DNA from: a virus
Reading direction: 5' to 3' (one strand)
Length of the DNA: 23,509 nt
Virus record (IMG/VR): IMGVR_UViG_3300047554_000048
Span: 1-23,509 of that record
Numbering within the stretch: position 1 is the first letter of the stretch; every line of letters starts with the position of its first letter. A program made the position numbers and the translations under genes. Of this stretch, positions 4,528 to 9,150 are shown one piece after another. Under the pieces are notes generated by a model, which was given only the letters and a program-made list of their open reading frames with translations, searched no databases and was not told the origin of the DNA.

Positions 4528-5193
4528 TTATAACTCCTTGGCTTTCTTCAAAGCACTTCTTACTTTACTAGGAAGCAAAGTCCACAATGCTATTTTTTGT
4601 TCAGCATCTAGGTTCTCAGCTTCCAACTTCACCCAAGCTGTCTTAGGTTCTTCTTTATCGCAGAGAGCAATTAAATCAATTGCTAACTCTTTGAGATAAA
4701 TCTGTTCGTCTTCTGGGATGCTATCCATTGCACCTTGTGTTGGTGTAATTATTATCTTTTCTACTGGTGCATCATCATCTGGCAAGTCTTGACCAGCATA
4801 GATGTATAGCCCAAGTCCATGCAAGCCAAGTGCTTTGGTCATGCAGCGCATAATGGCTGTGTTAACCGCAAACGCATCACACTCAACCCGATACTCTTTG
4901 CCATACTTAGAAACTGCTGTATAGCCTTTTAATGGGATTGCTTTGTTGCTTGAGTCCATAACTGGCAACTGACAGGTCATTGGCTTGTCAAACATAGTAA
5001 CTGTCACCCAGACCATTGCTGTGCCGTTAATCTCCATGTAGCATTTTTCGCCAAACATCTCTACCTTGTAGGTGGCTTTAGGGTCTGCTTTGAGAGCCTC
5101 TGCCCATGCCCAAGCCCATGACAAATAGGTTAGGTTTTGTTTCTTTTCAGTATGCTCGTTAACATTTAACTTAAGTAGTGCTTCAATTGACAT
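4528..5193 (-). CDS. DUF1071-family single-strand annealing protein (Sak3-like recombinase)
   Basis: 221 residues. The N-terminus is typical of the DUF1071 family: a short leader, then LTYLSWAWAWAEALKADPKATY. A beta-rich part follows (VEMFGEKCYMEINGTAMVWV) and then the conserved VECDAFAVNTAIMRCMTKAL with HGLGLYIYAGQDLP (~105-137). Members act like Sak3/Rad52-type annealases, pairing complementary single strands during phage recombination and replication. The C-terminal ~70 residues are a variable helical domain. A GGAAGA site precedes the ATG. The small SSB-tailed protein follows immediately, and RusA lies on the opposite strand. Family confident; the Rad52-like mechanism comes from family knowledge. 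Confidence 0.83.
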   Translation of the reverse strand: MSIEALLKLNVNEHTEKKQNLTYLSWAWAWAEALKADPKATYKVEMFGEKCYMEINGTAMVWVTVTMFDKPMTCQLPVMDSSNKAIPLKGYTAVSKYGKEYRVECDAFAVNTAIMRCMTKALGLHGLGLYIYAGQDLPDDDAPVEKIIITPTQGAMDSIPEDEQIYLKELAIDLIALCDKEEPKTAWVKLEAENLDAEQKIALWTLLPSKVRSALKKAKEL

Positions 5194-5520: not shown

Positions 5521-5738
5521 GCTTCTTTTGCTTTTAAAACAAGTTTTTTAACTTTGTAAACAAATTTTTTAGATTTGCTATCTTTATTTTTGGCTACTGT
5601 TTTTGCTTCTTTTAATGTGTCAAATACACCACAAATTTGATATGCTGTGTGATATGCAATAAAAGATTGCCAAAGAAAACGATTGGTAATTTTGTGTCTT
5701 GTAACAAGATAAATTGTTATCACTATTACCCCCGCCAT
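5517..5738 (-). CDS. Small basic protein with N-terminal hydrophobic stretch
   Basis: 73 residues from ATG 5738. The core YLVTRHKITNRFLWQSF with a following GVFDTLKEAKTVAKN looks like a small mixed alpha/beta fold, and the C-terminus is very lysine-rich (KKFVYKVKKLVLKAKEA). The start is uncertain: an ATG at 5786 would give 89 residues but lies deep in the upstream gene, while a GTG at 5723 follows a G-rich stretch and would give 68. The frame overlaps the upstream membrane peptide by 13 bases. The gene is more AT-rich than its neighbours. No family recognised. Confidence 0.5.
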   Translation of the reverse strand: MAGVIVITIYLVTRHKITNRFLWQSFIAYHTAYQICGVFDTLKEAKTVAKNKDSKSKKFVYKVKKLVLKAKEA

Positions 5739-5818
5739 GCCAGCATTACGCCAATACCGCCAAAGATGATGACTGCCAATGTCCACTCAATCAGCGTTTG
5801 AATAATCTTACTTTTCAT
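5726..5818 (-). CDS. 30-residue membrane peptide, first gene of the leftward operon
   Basis: Runs from ATG 5818 to TAA at 5726-5728 on the minus strand. A good GGAG Shine-Dalgarno precedes it and the conserved leader of promoter P1 ends here, so it is the first translated frame of the leftward transcript. The peptide has a basic N-terminus (MKSKIIQ), one membrane span (LAVIIFGGIGVMLAW, ~14-28) and ends in RG. Function unknown; small inner-membrane peptides in early phage operons can act in exclusion or host membrane interference. Confidence 0.55.
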   Translation of the reverse strand: MKSKIIQTLIEWTLAVIIFGGIGVMLAWRG

Positions 5819-5825
5819 TTGGTTC

Positions 5826-5897
5826 TCCTTAAAGACCCTTGCGATCTGCTTGGGCTGAGATGAAGTATATCAAAGTAAACGATATGTTTACTAGGTG
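5826..5897 (-). promoter_or_regulatory. P1: operator, extended -10 promoter and conserved leader for the recombination operon
   Basis: Read on the minus strand. A perfect inverted repeat GTAAAC-N5-GTTTAC (5875-5891) is followed after exactly five bases (TTTGA) by TATACT (5864-5869), with TG giving an extended -10. No good -35 is visible, which fits an extended -10 promoter. The leader (5826-5857) contains CAGCCCAAGCA and TCGCAAGGGT before the Shine-Dalgarno. The whole block is closely similar to P3 near 8811. The operator lies where a bound repressor would block RNA polymerase; the nearby Cro-like protein is the obvious candidate. Confidence 0.72.
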
Positions 5898-5908
5898 ATT
5901 TCCCTTAG

Positions 5909-5936
5909 ATCAACAATTTGTTGACTTTGCTATACT
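5909..5936 (+). promoter_or_regulatory. P2: operator and extended -10 promoter of cro
   Basis: A 15-base perfect palindrome TCAACAA-T-TTGTTGA (5910-5924) sits in the same frame as the P1 operator (17-bp window 5909-5925) and is followed after five bases (TTTGC) by TATACT (5931-5936) with TG upstream (extended -10). Only six bases separate the -10 from the cro ATG, so transcription should begin at or next to the start codon. The site implies autoregulation by Cro. P1 and P2 are divergent and their operators lie 18 bases apart. Confidence 0.72.
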
Positions 5937-5942
5937 CCAAGG

Positions 5943-6095
5943 ATGGAAAAACAAACAGCTATCACACTTGCTGGCTCACAGAGTGAGCTTGCTCGTATCC
6001 TTGGCATAACTAGGGCAGCAGTCAACCATTGGAAGACTATTCCCTTGTTACGCCTCTATCAACTCAAAGAACTTAAACCAGAGTGGTTCAAATGA
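5943..6095 (+). CDS. cro: Cro-like transcriptional repressor
   Basis: 50 residues, sharing a four-base ATGA with the next gene. A helix-turn-helix is clear: SQSELARILGITRAAVNHWK (13-32), with the Q-x-E-L-A...G-I-T...V-x-x-W pattern of small Cro proteins, and a short C-terminal arm (RLYQLKELKPEWFK). It probably binds as a dimer to the 17-bp inverted repeats at 5875-5891, 5909-5925 and 8817-8833. No ribosome-binding site at normal distance precedes the ATG, and the -10 box ends six bases away, consistent with a leaderless message. No CI partner is visible in the window. Confidence 0.82.
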   Translation: MEKQTAITLAGSQSELARILGITRAAVNHWKTIPLLRLYQLKELKPEWFK

Positions 6096-6292
6096 AAAGC
6101 AGAATTAACTTTTACTTTGAAAACAAGTCATCAATGATGCTTCATTTGCAATTTGCGACAGAGAACGTCTCTTTGGAAGACTCATTGCATCAATTGATTT
6201 GGTATCACTTCTACAAAGACAGAGCGTCAAAAGTGTATTTTCAAATGACCCACAAAGAACGAGAAACACTCCACAAGTTAATGATCTTATGA
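6092..6292 (+). CDS. 66-residue protein of unknown function
   Basis: The start at 6092 is chosen because it overlaps the cro stop as ATGA; an in-frame ATG at 6083 would lie inside cro. The protein begins MKSRINFYFENKSSMMLHL and has an amphipathic pattern with aromatic residues (WYHFYKDRASKVYF), then a charged helical end (THKERETLHKLMIL). No domain recognised. It ends in a further ATGA overlap at 6289-6292. Operon position behind cro suggests an early function. Confidence 0.55.
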   Translation: MKSRINFYFENKSSMMLHLQFATENVSLEDSLHQLIWYHFYKDRASKVYFQMTHKERETLHKLMIL

Positions 6293-6636
6293 CCCAAGCA
6301 CAAGTTATCAAAGCCCTCCAGAATGGCTCACTCACATCTCACGAAGTAGCAAACCTTACTGGTATGCCACAAGCCACAGTCCTATGTACTGCCAAGACGC
6401 TACGCAAACAAGGTAGATTGACTACAGAGCAGGTCAAGGTAGGCAGACATTGGGTTGCTCAGTACACCTTGGCTGACCATGAGGTAGAAAAGCTAGACAG
6501 CAATGTAAAAATCATCTGTGGCATCAAGACCTATGGCATTTTCTCAAAGGCTGAATATGCCCAGATGAAGGCACAAGCTACTCGATTGCTTGGCAAACCT
6601 GCAAAAAAAGAAATCACAAATAATCAATTCATTTAA
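6289..6636 (+). CDS. Winged-helix DNA-binding protein, possible regulator
   Basis: 115 residues from ATG 6289, chosen for the four-base overlap with the preceding gene; the frame is open further upstream but would overlap deeply. The N-terminus has a helix-turn-helix: MTQAQVIKALQNGSLTSHEV, then ANLTGMPQATVLCTAKTL (~21-38), followed by a wing-like QGRLTTEQVKVGRHWVAQY (~41-59). The C-terminal half (~70-105) is a mixed domain with KTYGIFSKAEYAQMKAQATR. It may be a second transcription factor, for example a middle or late gene switch, or a replication accessory. DNA binding is well supported; target unknown. Confidence 0.65.
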   Translation: MTQAQVIKALQNGSLTSHEVANLTGMPQATVLCTAKTLRKQGRLTTEQVKVGRHWVAQYTLADHEVEKLDSNVKIICGIKTYGIFSKAEYAQMKAQATRLLGKPAKKEITNNQFI

Positions 6637-6683
6637 CTATACAGTAGGCTTTTTTAAGTTTACAATTATTTGAAACACGGCTA

Positions 6684-6723
6684 GGTACGAAGTCATGAGC
6701 GTACCGAAAAGGGTTCACCCTTT
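6684..6723 (+). other. Two tandem hairpins in the leader of the replication gene
   Basis: In the 136-base gap between 6636 and 6773 two perfect inverted repeats lie back to back: GGTACG/CGTACC (6684-6689 with 6700-6705, 10-base loop) and AAAGGG/CCCTTT (6708-6713 with 6718-6723, 4-base loop). No U-run follows the second stem, so this is not a standard terminator. It could be RNA structure controlling the replication gene, or DNA binding sites. The rest of the gap is AT-rich with no gene seen. Confidence 0.4.
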
Positions 6724-6772
6724 CCCCTGCCGATTGTTTCTCATCAAAGGGCGTTTTAAAGCGGTGAAAACT

Positions 6773-7543
6773 ATGCCAACTAGGTATTTAAAATCTGGTA
6801 TTCGTGACAGCGAATCCATCGAAAACTTATCTCCAATTGCTGAAAATCTTTACTATCGTTTACTGGTAACAGTTGATGATTTTGGGCGTTATGACGCTAG
6901 ACCAGCAATGATTAAGGCTGCTTGCTTTCCAATAAAAGATAGCATAAACGCAGCAAAAACTGAGGCTTTGCTTAAAGAACTTGCACAACATGGATTGATT
7001 GAAATCTATGTTGACAATGACAAGCCTTATTTGCAAATGACCAAGTGGGACAATGTTCCTCGTGCAAAAGAAAGCAAATACCCAACAAATCCGCACAATG
7101 CCATACAAGTGTATGCAGATGTATGCAACACACATACAGATGTACCTTTAACTAAAACAGAAACTAAAACAAAAACCGAAACTAAAACAATAGATGCGCC
7201 AGAAGGCGTTTCACAAGAAGTTTGGGATTCTTTTGTTAAACAAAGAAAAGTTGCTCGTGCTGTGATTACCGAAACTGTCATCAAGACAATTAGGTTTGAA
7301 GCTGAGAAGGCTGGCTGGACTCTTGAGAAAGCATTGGCAGAGTGTGCTGCTCGTGGATGGAGAGGATTTAAAGCTGATTGGGTAATGGCTAAACCTAATC
7401 CTGCTGACAACATCAGGCTCACAGTTCCTGCATCAAATGAGCCTGACCCTGCATTGTTAAAAATTAAACAAGATGAGAAAGTAACTCGTCCTCCAACACC
7501 TGAAGAACTTGCAATCTTTAATTCAATCAGGAGAAAAGCATGA
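6773..7543 (+). CDS. Phage replication protein (helicase-loader/initiator-like)
   Basis: 256 residues from ATG 6773; the frame is open to an ATG at 6695, but that one falls inside the first hairpin and homologues usually begin near MPTRYLKSGI. The N-terminal domain (~1-100) has the pattern of phage replisome-organizer winged helices: IRDSESIENLSPIAENLYYR, LLVTVDDFGRYDARP, MIKAACFPIKD. A linker of repeated Thr-Glu-Thr-Lys (~120-137) follows. The C-terminal region carries EVWDSFVKQRKVARAVITET and ECAARGWRGFKADWV, often seen at the end of phage initiators. It likely recruits the host helicase to the phage origin, as no helicase is encoded here. The origin itself was not identified. Confidence 0.72.
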   Translation: MPTRYLKSGIRDSESIENLSPIAENLYYRLLVTVDDFGRYDARPAMIKAACFPIKDSINAAKTEALLKELAQHGLIEIYVDNDKPYLQMTKWDNVPRAKESKYPTNPHNAIQVYADVCNTHTDVPLTKTETKTKTETKTIDAPEGVSQEVWDSFVKQRKVARAVITETVIKTIRFEAEKAGWTLEKALAECAARGWRGFKADWVMAKPNPADNIRLTVPASNEPDPALLKIKQDEKVTRPPTPEELAIFNSIRRKA

Positions 7544-7746
7544 ATTTTTTAGATTCTTACCCAACAGAGTTTTATGTTTCTGATGTTGGATATTTAGTTT
7601 TAAAACAAGAATGTTTTGGTTGTGGTTATGAAACACAATTTTTAATTACTCCTGAACAAACAAAAATTCTTATGAATTTATTGCCAGACTTGGTAAAACA
7701 ACAAACCGAAAGATGGACAGGGGTTTACTCTCCTTCTGACGAATGA
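7540..7746 (+). CDS. 68-residue CxxC-containing protein
   Basis: Overlaps the replication gene by four bases at the start (7540-7543) and the next gene by four at the end (7743-7746). The sequence has a single CFGCGYETQFLITPEQTKIL block (Cys25, Cys28) that resembles half of a zinc ribbon, then a helical LLPDLVKQQTERW segment. AT-rich compared with the genes further right. No family recognised; perhaps a small DNA- or protein-binding factor made together with the replication protein. Confidence 0.55.
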   Translation: MNFLDSYPTEFYVSDVGYLVLKQECFGCGYETQFLITPEQTKILMNLLPDLVKQQTERWTGVYSPSDE

Positions 7747-7862
7747 GCCACTACGAAGCAATGAAACTACTGGACAAGGTGCGTGAAGGCGTACCAGTAC
7801 CACTACACCTTATAAACAAAGCATTGGAATTAACTGGTGACTTACTCACGCAAGACGATTGA
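7743..7862 (+). CDS. 39-residue helical protein
   Basis: Starts in ATGA at 7743-7746 and stops with TGA at 7860-7862. It reads MSHYEAMKLLDKVREGVPVP followed by a helical HLINKALELTGDLLTQDD, a compact two-helix pattern. The coupled start and the balanced composition favour a real gene; function is unknown. The next gene opens inside it with a GTG (26-base overlap). Confidence 0.5.
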   Translation: MSHYEAMKLLDKVREGVPVPLHLINKALELTGDLLTQDD

Positions 7863-8049
7863 AAACCCAAACGATAGGGTAATTCTTGAGCAAGCAGAAG
7901 CAAGGGAACTCTATCGTGCTTGGCAATCTAGCAAAAACTCAAACCTGATTCGAGCAAGACTTGAACGAGCAGAACGAATCTATGGCTCTGGCTCACGAGA
8001 CAGAATCCGAGAATATATGGCACAAATGAGAGAAGGGACACTCGAATGA
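7837..8049 (+). CDS. 70-residue charged helical protein (GTG start)
   Basis: Starts with GTG at 7837, the only plausible start in the frame, with a GGA about eight bases upstream. The protein is almost entirely charged helix (VILEQAEARELYRAWQSSKN and LIRARLERAERIYGSGSRDR), with many arginines and glutamates, suggesting a coiled coil or helical bundle. It ends in a four-base overlap with the RusA gene (8046-8049). No family recognised; possibly a recombination or regulatory accessory. Confidence 0.55.
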   Translation: MTYSRKTIENPNDRVILEQAEARELYRAWQSSKNSNLIRARLERAERIYGSGSRDRIREYMAQMREGTLE

Positions 8050-8474
8050 CATTCATGGTCACATTTAAGGTTGATGGAAACCCTGTTGGAAAACAAAGAG
8101 CAAGGTATGTCAAACGTGGGAACTTTGTACAAACTTACACACCTGAAAAAACTAGAACTTACGAATCTTTGATTAAAGATGCAGCCATCGAAGCAATGGG
8201 AAGTTCCGAGCCACTAGAAACTCCAGTAACGCTTTATCTATATATCAGAGTACCTATGCCTAAGTCATACTCAAAAAAACGCATAGAGGCTTGTTTAAAT
8301 GGCTCTGAGCAACCAATAAAGAAGCCAGATGCCAGCAACATTCTGAAAAGCGTAGAAGATGGTATGAATTCTGTCGTTTACAAAGATGATTCGCAGATTG
8401 TGAATATCCATGTAACTAAGGTTTACTCAAGTCAAGCTGGTGTGGATATTTGCGTAAAGGAGTGCCTCCAATGA
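8046..8474 (+). CDS. rusA: RusA-family Holliday junction resolvase
   Basis: 142 residues. RusA features appear in order: an N-terminal strand with GNPVGKQRARYVKRG, then after ~90 residues the active-site block KKPDASNILKSVEDGMNSVV (~92-111) and YKDDSQIV (112-119). RusA dimers cut four-way junctions, here probably resolving recombination intermediates or branched DNA before packaging. The first acidic residue (Asp95) and the later Asp105, Asp114 and Asp115 are present, but the position usually Asp in KPDxDN is Ser97. It overlaps its neighbours by four bases on each side. Strong family call; activity of the serine variant uncertain. Confidence 0.88.
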   Translation: MTFMVTFKVDGNPVGKQRARYVKRGNFVQTYTPEKTRTYESLIKDAAIEAMGSSEPLETPVTLYLYIRVPMPKSYSKKRIEACLNGSEQPIKKPDASNILKSVEDGMNSVVYKDDSQIVNIHVTKVYSSQAGVDICVKECLQ

Positions 8475-8803
8475 AAGCACCTTACAAAGCTATTGAATTT
8501 ATTCTTGAGAACGCACCAAAGTATGCCCAAGCCAAGGCTCAAAGAGTCTATCTGGAGGAATTCAGAAAAACTAAGAAGGCTTTATTGATGAAAGATGCTT
8601 TAGTCAGAGGGATTGATTCTGCTGTGGCTCAAGAGCGTGAAGCCTATGCGCACCTTGAATATGCTGATTTACTCAAAGGATTGATGGTAGCCATCGAACA
8701 AGAAGAAACTCTAAAGTGGAAGCTGACTGCTGCCCAGATGAAGGCTGACATTTGGCGTTCTGAGCAAGCAAGTGAGCGTCTTGGCGTAAAAACAACCGAA
8801 TAA
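8471..8803 (+). CDS. Conserved phage protein, helical, unknown function
   Basis: 110 residues from ATG 8471, in the ATGA overlap with rusA and with AAGGAG about eight bases upstream; an earlier in-frame ATG at 8450 is less likely. The sequence is helical and charged: IEFILENAPKYAQAKAQRVY, LEEFRKTKKALLM, AQEREAYAHLEYADLLKGL, ending with WKLTAAQMKADIWRSEQASE. This combination recurs in many phages and prophages of Proteobacteria next to rusA or ninG-like genes, but no biochemical role is known to me. Last gene before the P3 promoter. Confidence 0.7.
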   Translation: MKAPYKAIEFILENAPKYAQAKAQRVYLEEFRKTKKALLMKDALVRGIDSAVAQEREAYAHLEYADLLKGLMVAIEQEETLKWKLTAAQMKADIWRSEQASERLGVKTTE

Positions 8804-8810
8804 GTATAAA

Positions 8811-8885
8811 CACCTAGTAAATATCTTGTTTAGTTTGCTATACAATCACTACAGCCCAAGCAATTCGCAAGGGTACTTTTAAGGA
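8811..8885 (+). promoter_or_regulatory. P3: third copy of the operator-promoter-leader module
   Basis: A 17-bp operator-like repeat GTAAAT-N5-GTTTAG (8817-8833, imperfect) is followed after five bases (TTTGC) by TATACA (8839-8844) with TG for an extended -10. The leader at 8851-8885 contains CAGCCCAAGCA, TCGCAAGGGT and AAGGA, matching the P1 leader except for a few substitutions and two one-base gaps. The upstream flank CACCTAG is also shared. It probably drives the operon from 8893 to the terminator at 11618, under the same repressor as P1 and P2. Confidence 0.72.
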
Positions 8886-8892
8886 TTAAGCA

Positions 8893-9150
8893 ATGAAATA
8901 CGAATTTGACACAACTGTTGGTGAAGGCTCTGTAGTGGTTACTGTTGTCATGGAATACGACACAGATTCAGAAGGCATCTATGGCGAGAACATTGAAGAA
9001 ATCTGGTTTGAAGGCAGAAACGTAATTGGTCTGTTCTCTGCTGAACAATACAAAGAACTTGAGATAGAAGGCTGTATGCGTCTTTCTAAACACATCTTGG
9101 ATGAAGCAGACCACTCTGCATCTGTTGACTACGACATGAGACACATTTGA
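8893..9150 (+). CDS. Acidic protein of unknown function
   Basis: 85 residues, first gene behind P3. Strongly acidic, with an opening beta-rich half (YEFDTTVGEGSVVVTVVMEY) and a later helical half (SAEQYKELEIEGCMRLSKHI). No catalytic or binding motif recognised. AAGGA at 8881-8885 is the ribosome-binding site. As the first gene of an early operon with a strong-looking promoter, an anti-host or DNA-mimic role could be imagined, but the sequence only shows acidity. Confidence 0.6.
   Translation: MKYEFDTTVGEGSVVVTVVMEYDTDSEGIYGENIEEIWFEGRNVIGLFSAEQYKELEIEGCMRLSKHILDEADHSASVDYDMRHI

Follow-up and report, generated by a model that had tools for sequence, protein, structure and literature searches.

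We analysed positions 1 to 23,509 of the IMG/VR virus record IMGVR_UViG_3300047554_000048, which derives from an uncultured virus of bacteria; this whole stretch of 23,509 nucleotides (nt) is referred to here as the window. A gene for a small Cro-like repressor lies there among three predicted promoters, which we call PL (the left promoter, minus strand), Pcro (the cro promoter, plus strand) and PC (a third promoter, plus strand). Each promoter combines an operator-like inverted repeat, a five-base link and a −10 box:

5864–5869, minus strand: −10 box TATACT of PL (TATACT also at 23 of the 26 nonredundant PL from relatives)
5875–5891, minus strand: operator A, GTAAACATATCGTTTAC, with a 15-base-pair (bp) core dyad at 5876–5890 that scores 10/10 against TMAAC-N5-GTTKA
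5909–5925, plus strand: operator B, ATCAACAATTTGTTGAC, with a 15-bp core dyad at 5910–5924
5931–5936, plus strand: −10 box TATACT of Pcro, extended, preceded by TTTGC
5943–6095, plus strand: cro, encoding 50 amino acids of the P22_Cro family, predicted to be leaderless, starting 6 nt after the −10 box
8817–8833, plus strand: operator C, GTAAATATCTTGTTTAG, whose core at 8818–8832 scores 9/10
8839–8844, plus strand: −10 box TATACA of PC, extended, preceded by TTTGC

An earlier note on this DNA had placed three such units at 5864–5891 (minus strand), 5909–5936 and 8817–8844 (plus strand), and both the coordinates and the five-base link proved exact. Its consensus, GTAAAC-N5-GTTTAC or a close variant, describes unit A (GTAAAC-ATATC-GTTTAC, TTTGA, TATACT) but neither unit B, which has different arms (ATCAAC-AATTT-GTTGAC, TTTGC, TATACT), nor the degenerate unit C (GTAAAT-ATCTT-GTTTAG, TTTGC, TATACA). 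The arms are complementary at 6/6, 5/6 and 4/6 positions in A, B and C, respectively; the inner 15 bp of unit B form a perfect TCAAC-N5-GTTGA dyad. TTTGNTATACW boxes occur at these three places only in the window, each with an arm match of at least 4/6, whereas 300 dinucleotide shuffles of the window gave means of 0.16 boxes and 0.007 box-plus-dyad units (maximum, 1). All three promoters carry the sigma-70 extended −10 signature of TGN before a TATAAT-like −10 (TTTGA or TTTGC, then TATACT or TATACA), and a consensus scan of the three found no −35 match; we therefore regard them as extended −10 promoters. The TG of the extended −10 itself accounts for some of the fixed five-base link.

The same design recurs in a large group of phages. 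A scan of IMG/VR yielded at least 382 contigs with a close relative of the window Cro, of which 80 were fetched as loci, and the control region is legible in nearly all of these. A second scan provided 77 loci with a YdaS-like protein. Across all fetched loci (2.1 megabases), the operator core TMAAC-N5-GTTKA, searched as T[AC]AAC-N5-GTT[GT]A, has 133 distinct copies, and 83 of these fall within the 1.3% of bases directly upstream of PL, Pcro or PC (1.8 expected). With spacers of N2–N4 and N6–N8 taken together, 5 of 86 copies lie upstream of these promoters, all of them N4; loci were made distinct by exact flanks only, so related copies inflate the dyad counts but not this spacer contrast. In 18 records of 30–37 kilobases (kb), matches to the core GTTTASTTTGCTATACW with up to two mismatches are confined to PL, Pcro and PC, and a reversed control of the promoter core has zero matches in the same records. 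When 238 possible dyads were ranked in nonredundant relatives (26 PL, 23 Pcro), the axis at −26 ranked first at Pcro and in ranks 1–3 at PC. The type-C promoter lies 2.2–4.1 kb downstream of cro in relatives, where GTTTAG-TTTGCTATAC[TA] is present in 41 of 41 strict matches.

The best candidate for the protein that reads these sites is the product of cro itself. It matches P22_Cro (Pfam PF14549; 38.6 bits, cut-off 30.2), also passes the YdaS_toxin cut-off (33.8 versus 30 bits) and has P22 Cro (1rzs) as its nearest solved relative (E = 1.3 × 10⁻⁵). Gene content was tested on 19 records, each of which has exactly one P22_Cro gene. These records, some of which may be fragments, contain no match to Peptidase_S24 and none to Phage_integrase (PF00589), a search that left resolvase-type integrases outside its scope; nothing in them exceeds the HTH_3 cut-off, and the matches below it, where listed, correspond to Cro itself. 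On these grounds we rejected a lambda-like CI/Cro switch. With one P22_Cro gene and no integrase, S24 peptidase or second HTH_3 protein over cut-off, the lone Cro is the likeliest regulator. The proposal in the earlier note that a 50-residue Cro-like repressor governs the three promoters is partly supported: all three have the same operator type, a P22-type Cro is encoded beside them, and a large phage group retains this arrangement, with Cro as the predicted binder. Because the distance from the −10 box to the ATG of cro is only 5–6 nt in 81 of 81 cases, cro is predicted to be leaderless.

Some relatives have a different repressor at the cro position, a YdaS-like small helix-turn-helix (HTH) protein that scores 32.9 bits in one case (cut-off 30) and less in others. 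PL beside the YdaS-like repressor shares the operator core, scoring 10/10 at 14 PL and 9/10 at the other 5 of the 19, and homologous PL sites of this type show compensated arm changes, with TAAACATTTCGTTTA in locus L173 and TCAACATTTCGTTGA in L206. In loci L173–L218 the YdaS-like gene itself also appears leaderless (TATGATGCAACTATG), and the same operator core is seen at PL and PC.

We suggest that the lone P22-type Cro probably times three early promoters by negative feedback in an apparently non-integrating phage. PL (leftward), Pcro (rightward) and PC (2.9 kb downstream) would be recognized by the host RNA polymerase, each with a 15-bp operator near −26. Early in infection all three would fire, PL expressing recombination genes, Pcro expressing cro and replication genes and PC expressing accessory genes. 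The messages from PL and PC would begin with a conserved hairpin directly followed by a Shine–Dalgarno sequence, and Cro would be made from a leaderless message and stay low. As Cro accumulated, its dimer would bind TMAAC-N5-GTTKA, block RNA polymerase and turn down all three promoters, including its own, acting as a timer rather than a lysis–lysogeny switch. The sites with their spacing specificity and their confinement to these promoters, the gene content and the RNA pairing are observed in the sequences; from sequence we infer the identity of the binder, repression by binding, the start sites, the order of events and the function of the leader.

Several observations weigh against this simple picture. 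The axis at −26 ranks only seventh of 238 at PL. Conservation at PC and PL is much stronger in the proximal arm than in the distal arm, which is poorly kept, and may therefore partly reflect a role for RNA polymerase or for a protein that recognizes half-sites. In several relatives Pcro lacks a good dyad (ACAACAAATAATTTC), a Cro clade with the sequence IERSAVHQWK has lost the motif at PL and kept it at PC, and comparison by eye of Cro recognition-helix residues with operator arms in the P22-type group revealed no covariation. In that clade (loci L075–L084) IERSAVHQWK is the recognition helix, PL has TACAAT and no GTTTAG motif, and PC is of the usual form where visible. Most PL of P22_Cro-type relatives have the proximal half GTTTA[GC] together with half-sites (TTGACC or a second GTTTAG) and no palindrome; the perfect 17-bp PL palindrome with its five-base link is peculiar to the clade of the window.

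A second dyad, which we call M, was overlooked in the earlier note. It resembles TAGG-N7/8-CCTA and lies upstream of every promoter in the window:

5892–5907, no strand assigned: dyad M, TAGGTGATTTCCCTTA, between operators A and B and common to the divergent PL and Pcro
8801–8816, no strand assigned: dyad M upstream of PC, TAAGTATAAACACCTA

In the window M sits approximately 42–44 bp upstream of each predicted start, possibly as an additional site for Cro or as a site for an activator. A rival explanation, which we consider unlikely but the strongest of the alternatives, is that M near −42 is the main site, bound by Cro or by another phage protein that activates or represses, and that the −26 palindrome acts as a second, weaker operator, much like OR2 and OR3 at lambda PRM. 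M does follow the repressor type at PL, being found at 66 of 68 PL and 59 of 61 PC in P22_Cro-type relatives and at 0 of 19 PL in YdaS-like-type phages; the latter have it at 7 of 13 PC, and these exceptions look like recombinants. Pcro has the axis of M at about −43 and PC at −42.5, and activator-dependent promoters often lack a −35 match, as these promoters do. However, the axis is at −53 in the PL of most relatives, YdaS-like phages function without M at PL, both window copies are imperfect (TAGG/CTTA and TAAG/CCTA) and extended −10 promoters do not need an activator.

It is more doubtful still that a different phage or host protein binds the sites and that Cro controls something else. A candidate exists in the HTH_5/IclR-like winged-helix protein that follows cro (6289–6636), which looks conserved by eye in relatives. 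Yet the Pcro site adjoins cro, as expected for an autoregulated repressor, phages with another repressor in place of cro also differ in their PL control region, and the spacing and size of the sites suit a small HTH dimer. Least probable, in our judgement very improbable, is that GTTTAG-TTTGC-TATACW is merely the preferred promoter of the host RNA polymerase, with the dyad a by-product of AT-rich sequence. The near-invariant proximal arm GTTTAG and variable distal arms at PC would fit such a motif, but the proximal arm varies at Pcro (GTTGAT, GTTGAC, GTTAAC or GTAAAC), the dyad at some PC is followed by another link (AAAAC or AAATC), and a promoter motif leaves the spacing-specific enrichment and matched arm changes unexplained.

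Transcripts from PL and PC share a leader that Pcro lacks. After the −10 box and about six bases, both continue with CAGCCC...GGG...AAGGA:

5826–5857, minus strand: PL leader, with the hairpin CCC-AA-GC-AGATC-GC-AA-GGG and a Shine–Dalgarno sequence
8852–8885, plus strand: PC leader, with the hairpin CCC-AA-GC-AATTC-GC-AA-GGG, a U-rich stretch and the Shine–Dalgarno sequence AAGGA

There are normally two copies per genome, and 254 copies comprise 57 distinct versions. Four versions were folded and all four form the same hairpin, in which a CCC/GGG stem of 3–5 pairs leads through an A-rich internal loop to two inner pairs capped by a loop of five bases. The first inner pair is A–U in 29 versions, G–C in 23 and G–U in 5, so that all 57 pair (shuffled mean, 45); the second is C–G in 55 and A–U in 2, and again all pair (shuffled mean, 53). 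The next outer pair is A–U, G–C or U–A in 26 of 26 long forms (shuffled mean, 21). When 41 versions were aligned with MAFFT, pairing held in 91.5% of cells, compared with 78.4% in shuffles and 10–33% when the versions are slid, and all four variable pairs change on both sides in a compensatory manner. The pair at the foot of the hairpin is G–U in 47 versions and A–C in 10, and never G–C or A–U, as though a wobble geometry were maintained. No Rfam covariance model matches 5826–5857 or 8852–8885 up to E = 1. We rejected a terminator or attenuator, because many versions have no U-tract (GGGCAATTAAGGA) and retain the stem, and considered a DNA operator less likely, because the AA/AA flanks are non-complementary and G–U replaces Watson–Crick pairs. 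The leader probably protects the 5′ end of the message or helps its translation.

The leaders open onto genes of variable content, and the surrounding operons encode the following:

4528–5193, minus strand: Sak-type single-strand annealing protein of the left operon (Pfam SSAP_Sak, 1.4 × 10⁻³⁷)
5726–5818, minus strand: first gene of the PL operon, a 30-amino-acid predicted membrane peptide, MKSKIIQTLIEWTLAVIIFGGIGVMLAWRG
8893–9150, plus strand: first gene of the PC operon, MKYEFDTTVGEG..., 85 amino acids, the commonest PC first gene in relatives

The left operon further encodes an SSB-like protein and MazG, and to the right of cro lie the winged-helix protein, a replication initiator and RusA. 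The product of 8893–9150 has no Pfam or PHROG match. The PL peptide (MKSKIIQ...MLAWRG) is conserved as the commonest PL first gene, taking that place in about 29 relatives, and falls below the 40-amino-acid limit of the six-frame listing. In the gap that separates the winged-helix gene from the replication initiator in the cro operon, 6674–6751 (plus strand) scores 35.7 bits as the Rfam int-alpA RNA (gathering score, 35.8); an int-alpA RNA in relative L008 (8882–8948) passes the gathering score at a different place.

Across relatives, the first gene after the leader belongs to 23 families. For at least seven of these, some phages have the gene behind PL and other phages have it behind PC (MKLYGIN, MSKYFTN, MTKLFNADCY, MNTPSFSF, MTFTVTR, MTQVFKAY and MTNLNWM); three further families, of ten, were excluded, since what had been taken for PC in them is a PL copy next to a YdaS-like repressor. 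This distribution fits an exchange of cassettes through the shared leader, for which direction and mechanism are inferred. In one relative (L171–L172, genome G007), a 127-bp end repeat closes the sequence at approximately 34.6 kb, so this genome is essentially complete. Its structural proteins (a terminase-sized protein of 616 amino acids and others of 655 and 1,580) differ from those of the window and its early region is the same, indicating that the early control region travels as a module. The structural genes of this relative are siphovirus-like, and the window terminase groups with podovirus-type phages. A tentative extension, which we put forward as a possibility rather than as the expected outcome, is that operator, promoter and leader together form a portable socket, present twice per genome (at PL and PC) across a large set of uncultured phages with unrelated structural genes. 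A single repressor would time both copies, the leader would represent a new RNA family for message stability or translation, and homologous recombination would swap accessory early genes between positions and between phages.

Cro is known almost entirely as one half of a lysis–lysogeny switch; in this phage group, for which the cro gene by itself identifies at least 382 contigs, the lone Cro apparently times lytic growth. The group offers hundreds of naturally varied operators for comparison, as well as a natural repressor swap, and the leader is a compact RNA with good covariation that is suited to testing. Uniform sockets would mark the sites of variable, probably host-facing early genes and could thus aid the discovery of anti-defence and takeover genes in uncultured phages.

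At the sensitivity used, no GTDB genome encodes the window Cro or holds the exact leader, and neither control region is present in INPHARED phages. A leaderless cro message that starts at the AUG has been mapped experimentally in PY54 (PMC4488713), as is predicted for the window; PY54, however, is temperate, and its Cro recognizes a single operator and is believed not to act as its own repressor (PMC4488713). The terminases of Venkman EXVC282S (a Methylophilales phage; MT375522) and the Caudoviricetes phage MW202481 are 61–64% identical to that of the window, and both phages likewise have a Cro-like gene beside Sak/ERF recombination and replication genes and no annotated integrase or CI. Their cro genes differ in having ordinary leaders, and operators, promoter units and leader hairpins of the window type are all absent from them. 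Because these phages have an orphan cro without the units, an orphan Cro itself is not new; Cro is unmentioned in the Venkman papers (PMC8163748 and PMC9004378). What is new is the design of the operator–promoter unit and the leader hairpin.

In 5′ leaders of the T7 gene 10 type, a hairpin directly after the promoter is followed by a U-rich stretch and a ribosome-binding site. The PL and PC leader has the same layout in unrelated sequence, and differs in its two-part stem, conserved A-rich loops and sigma-70-type promoter. The immunity regions of lambda and P22 also have early promoters that diverge, flanked by recombination genes on the left and by cro and replication genes on the right, a small HTH Cro and dyads of 15–17 bp over the promoter. 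In the window, by comparison, PL and Pcro stand back to back, and a third promoter 2–4 kb downstream has the same operator and leader. Neither CI nor an integrase was found in the 19 records, so there is no lysogeny switch and the system falls outside the CI/Cro switch class; by analogy, it would work like the Cro half of the lambda and P22 switch.

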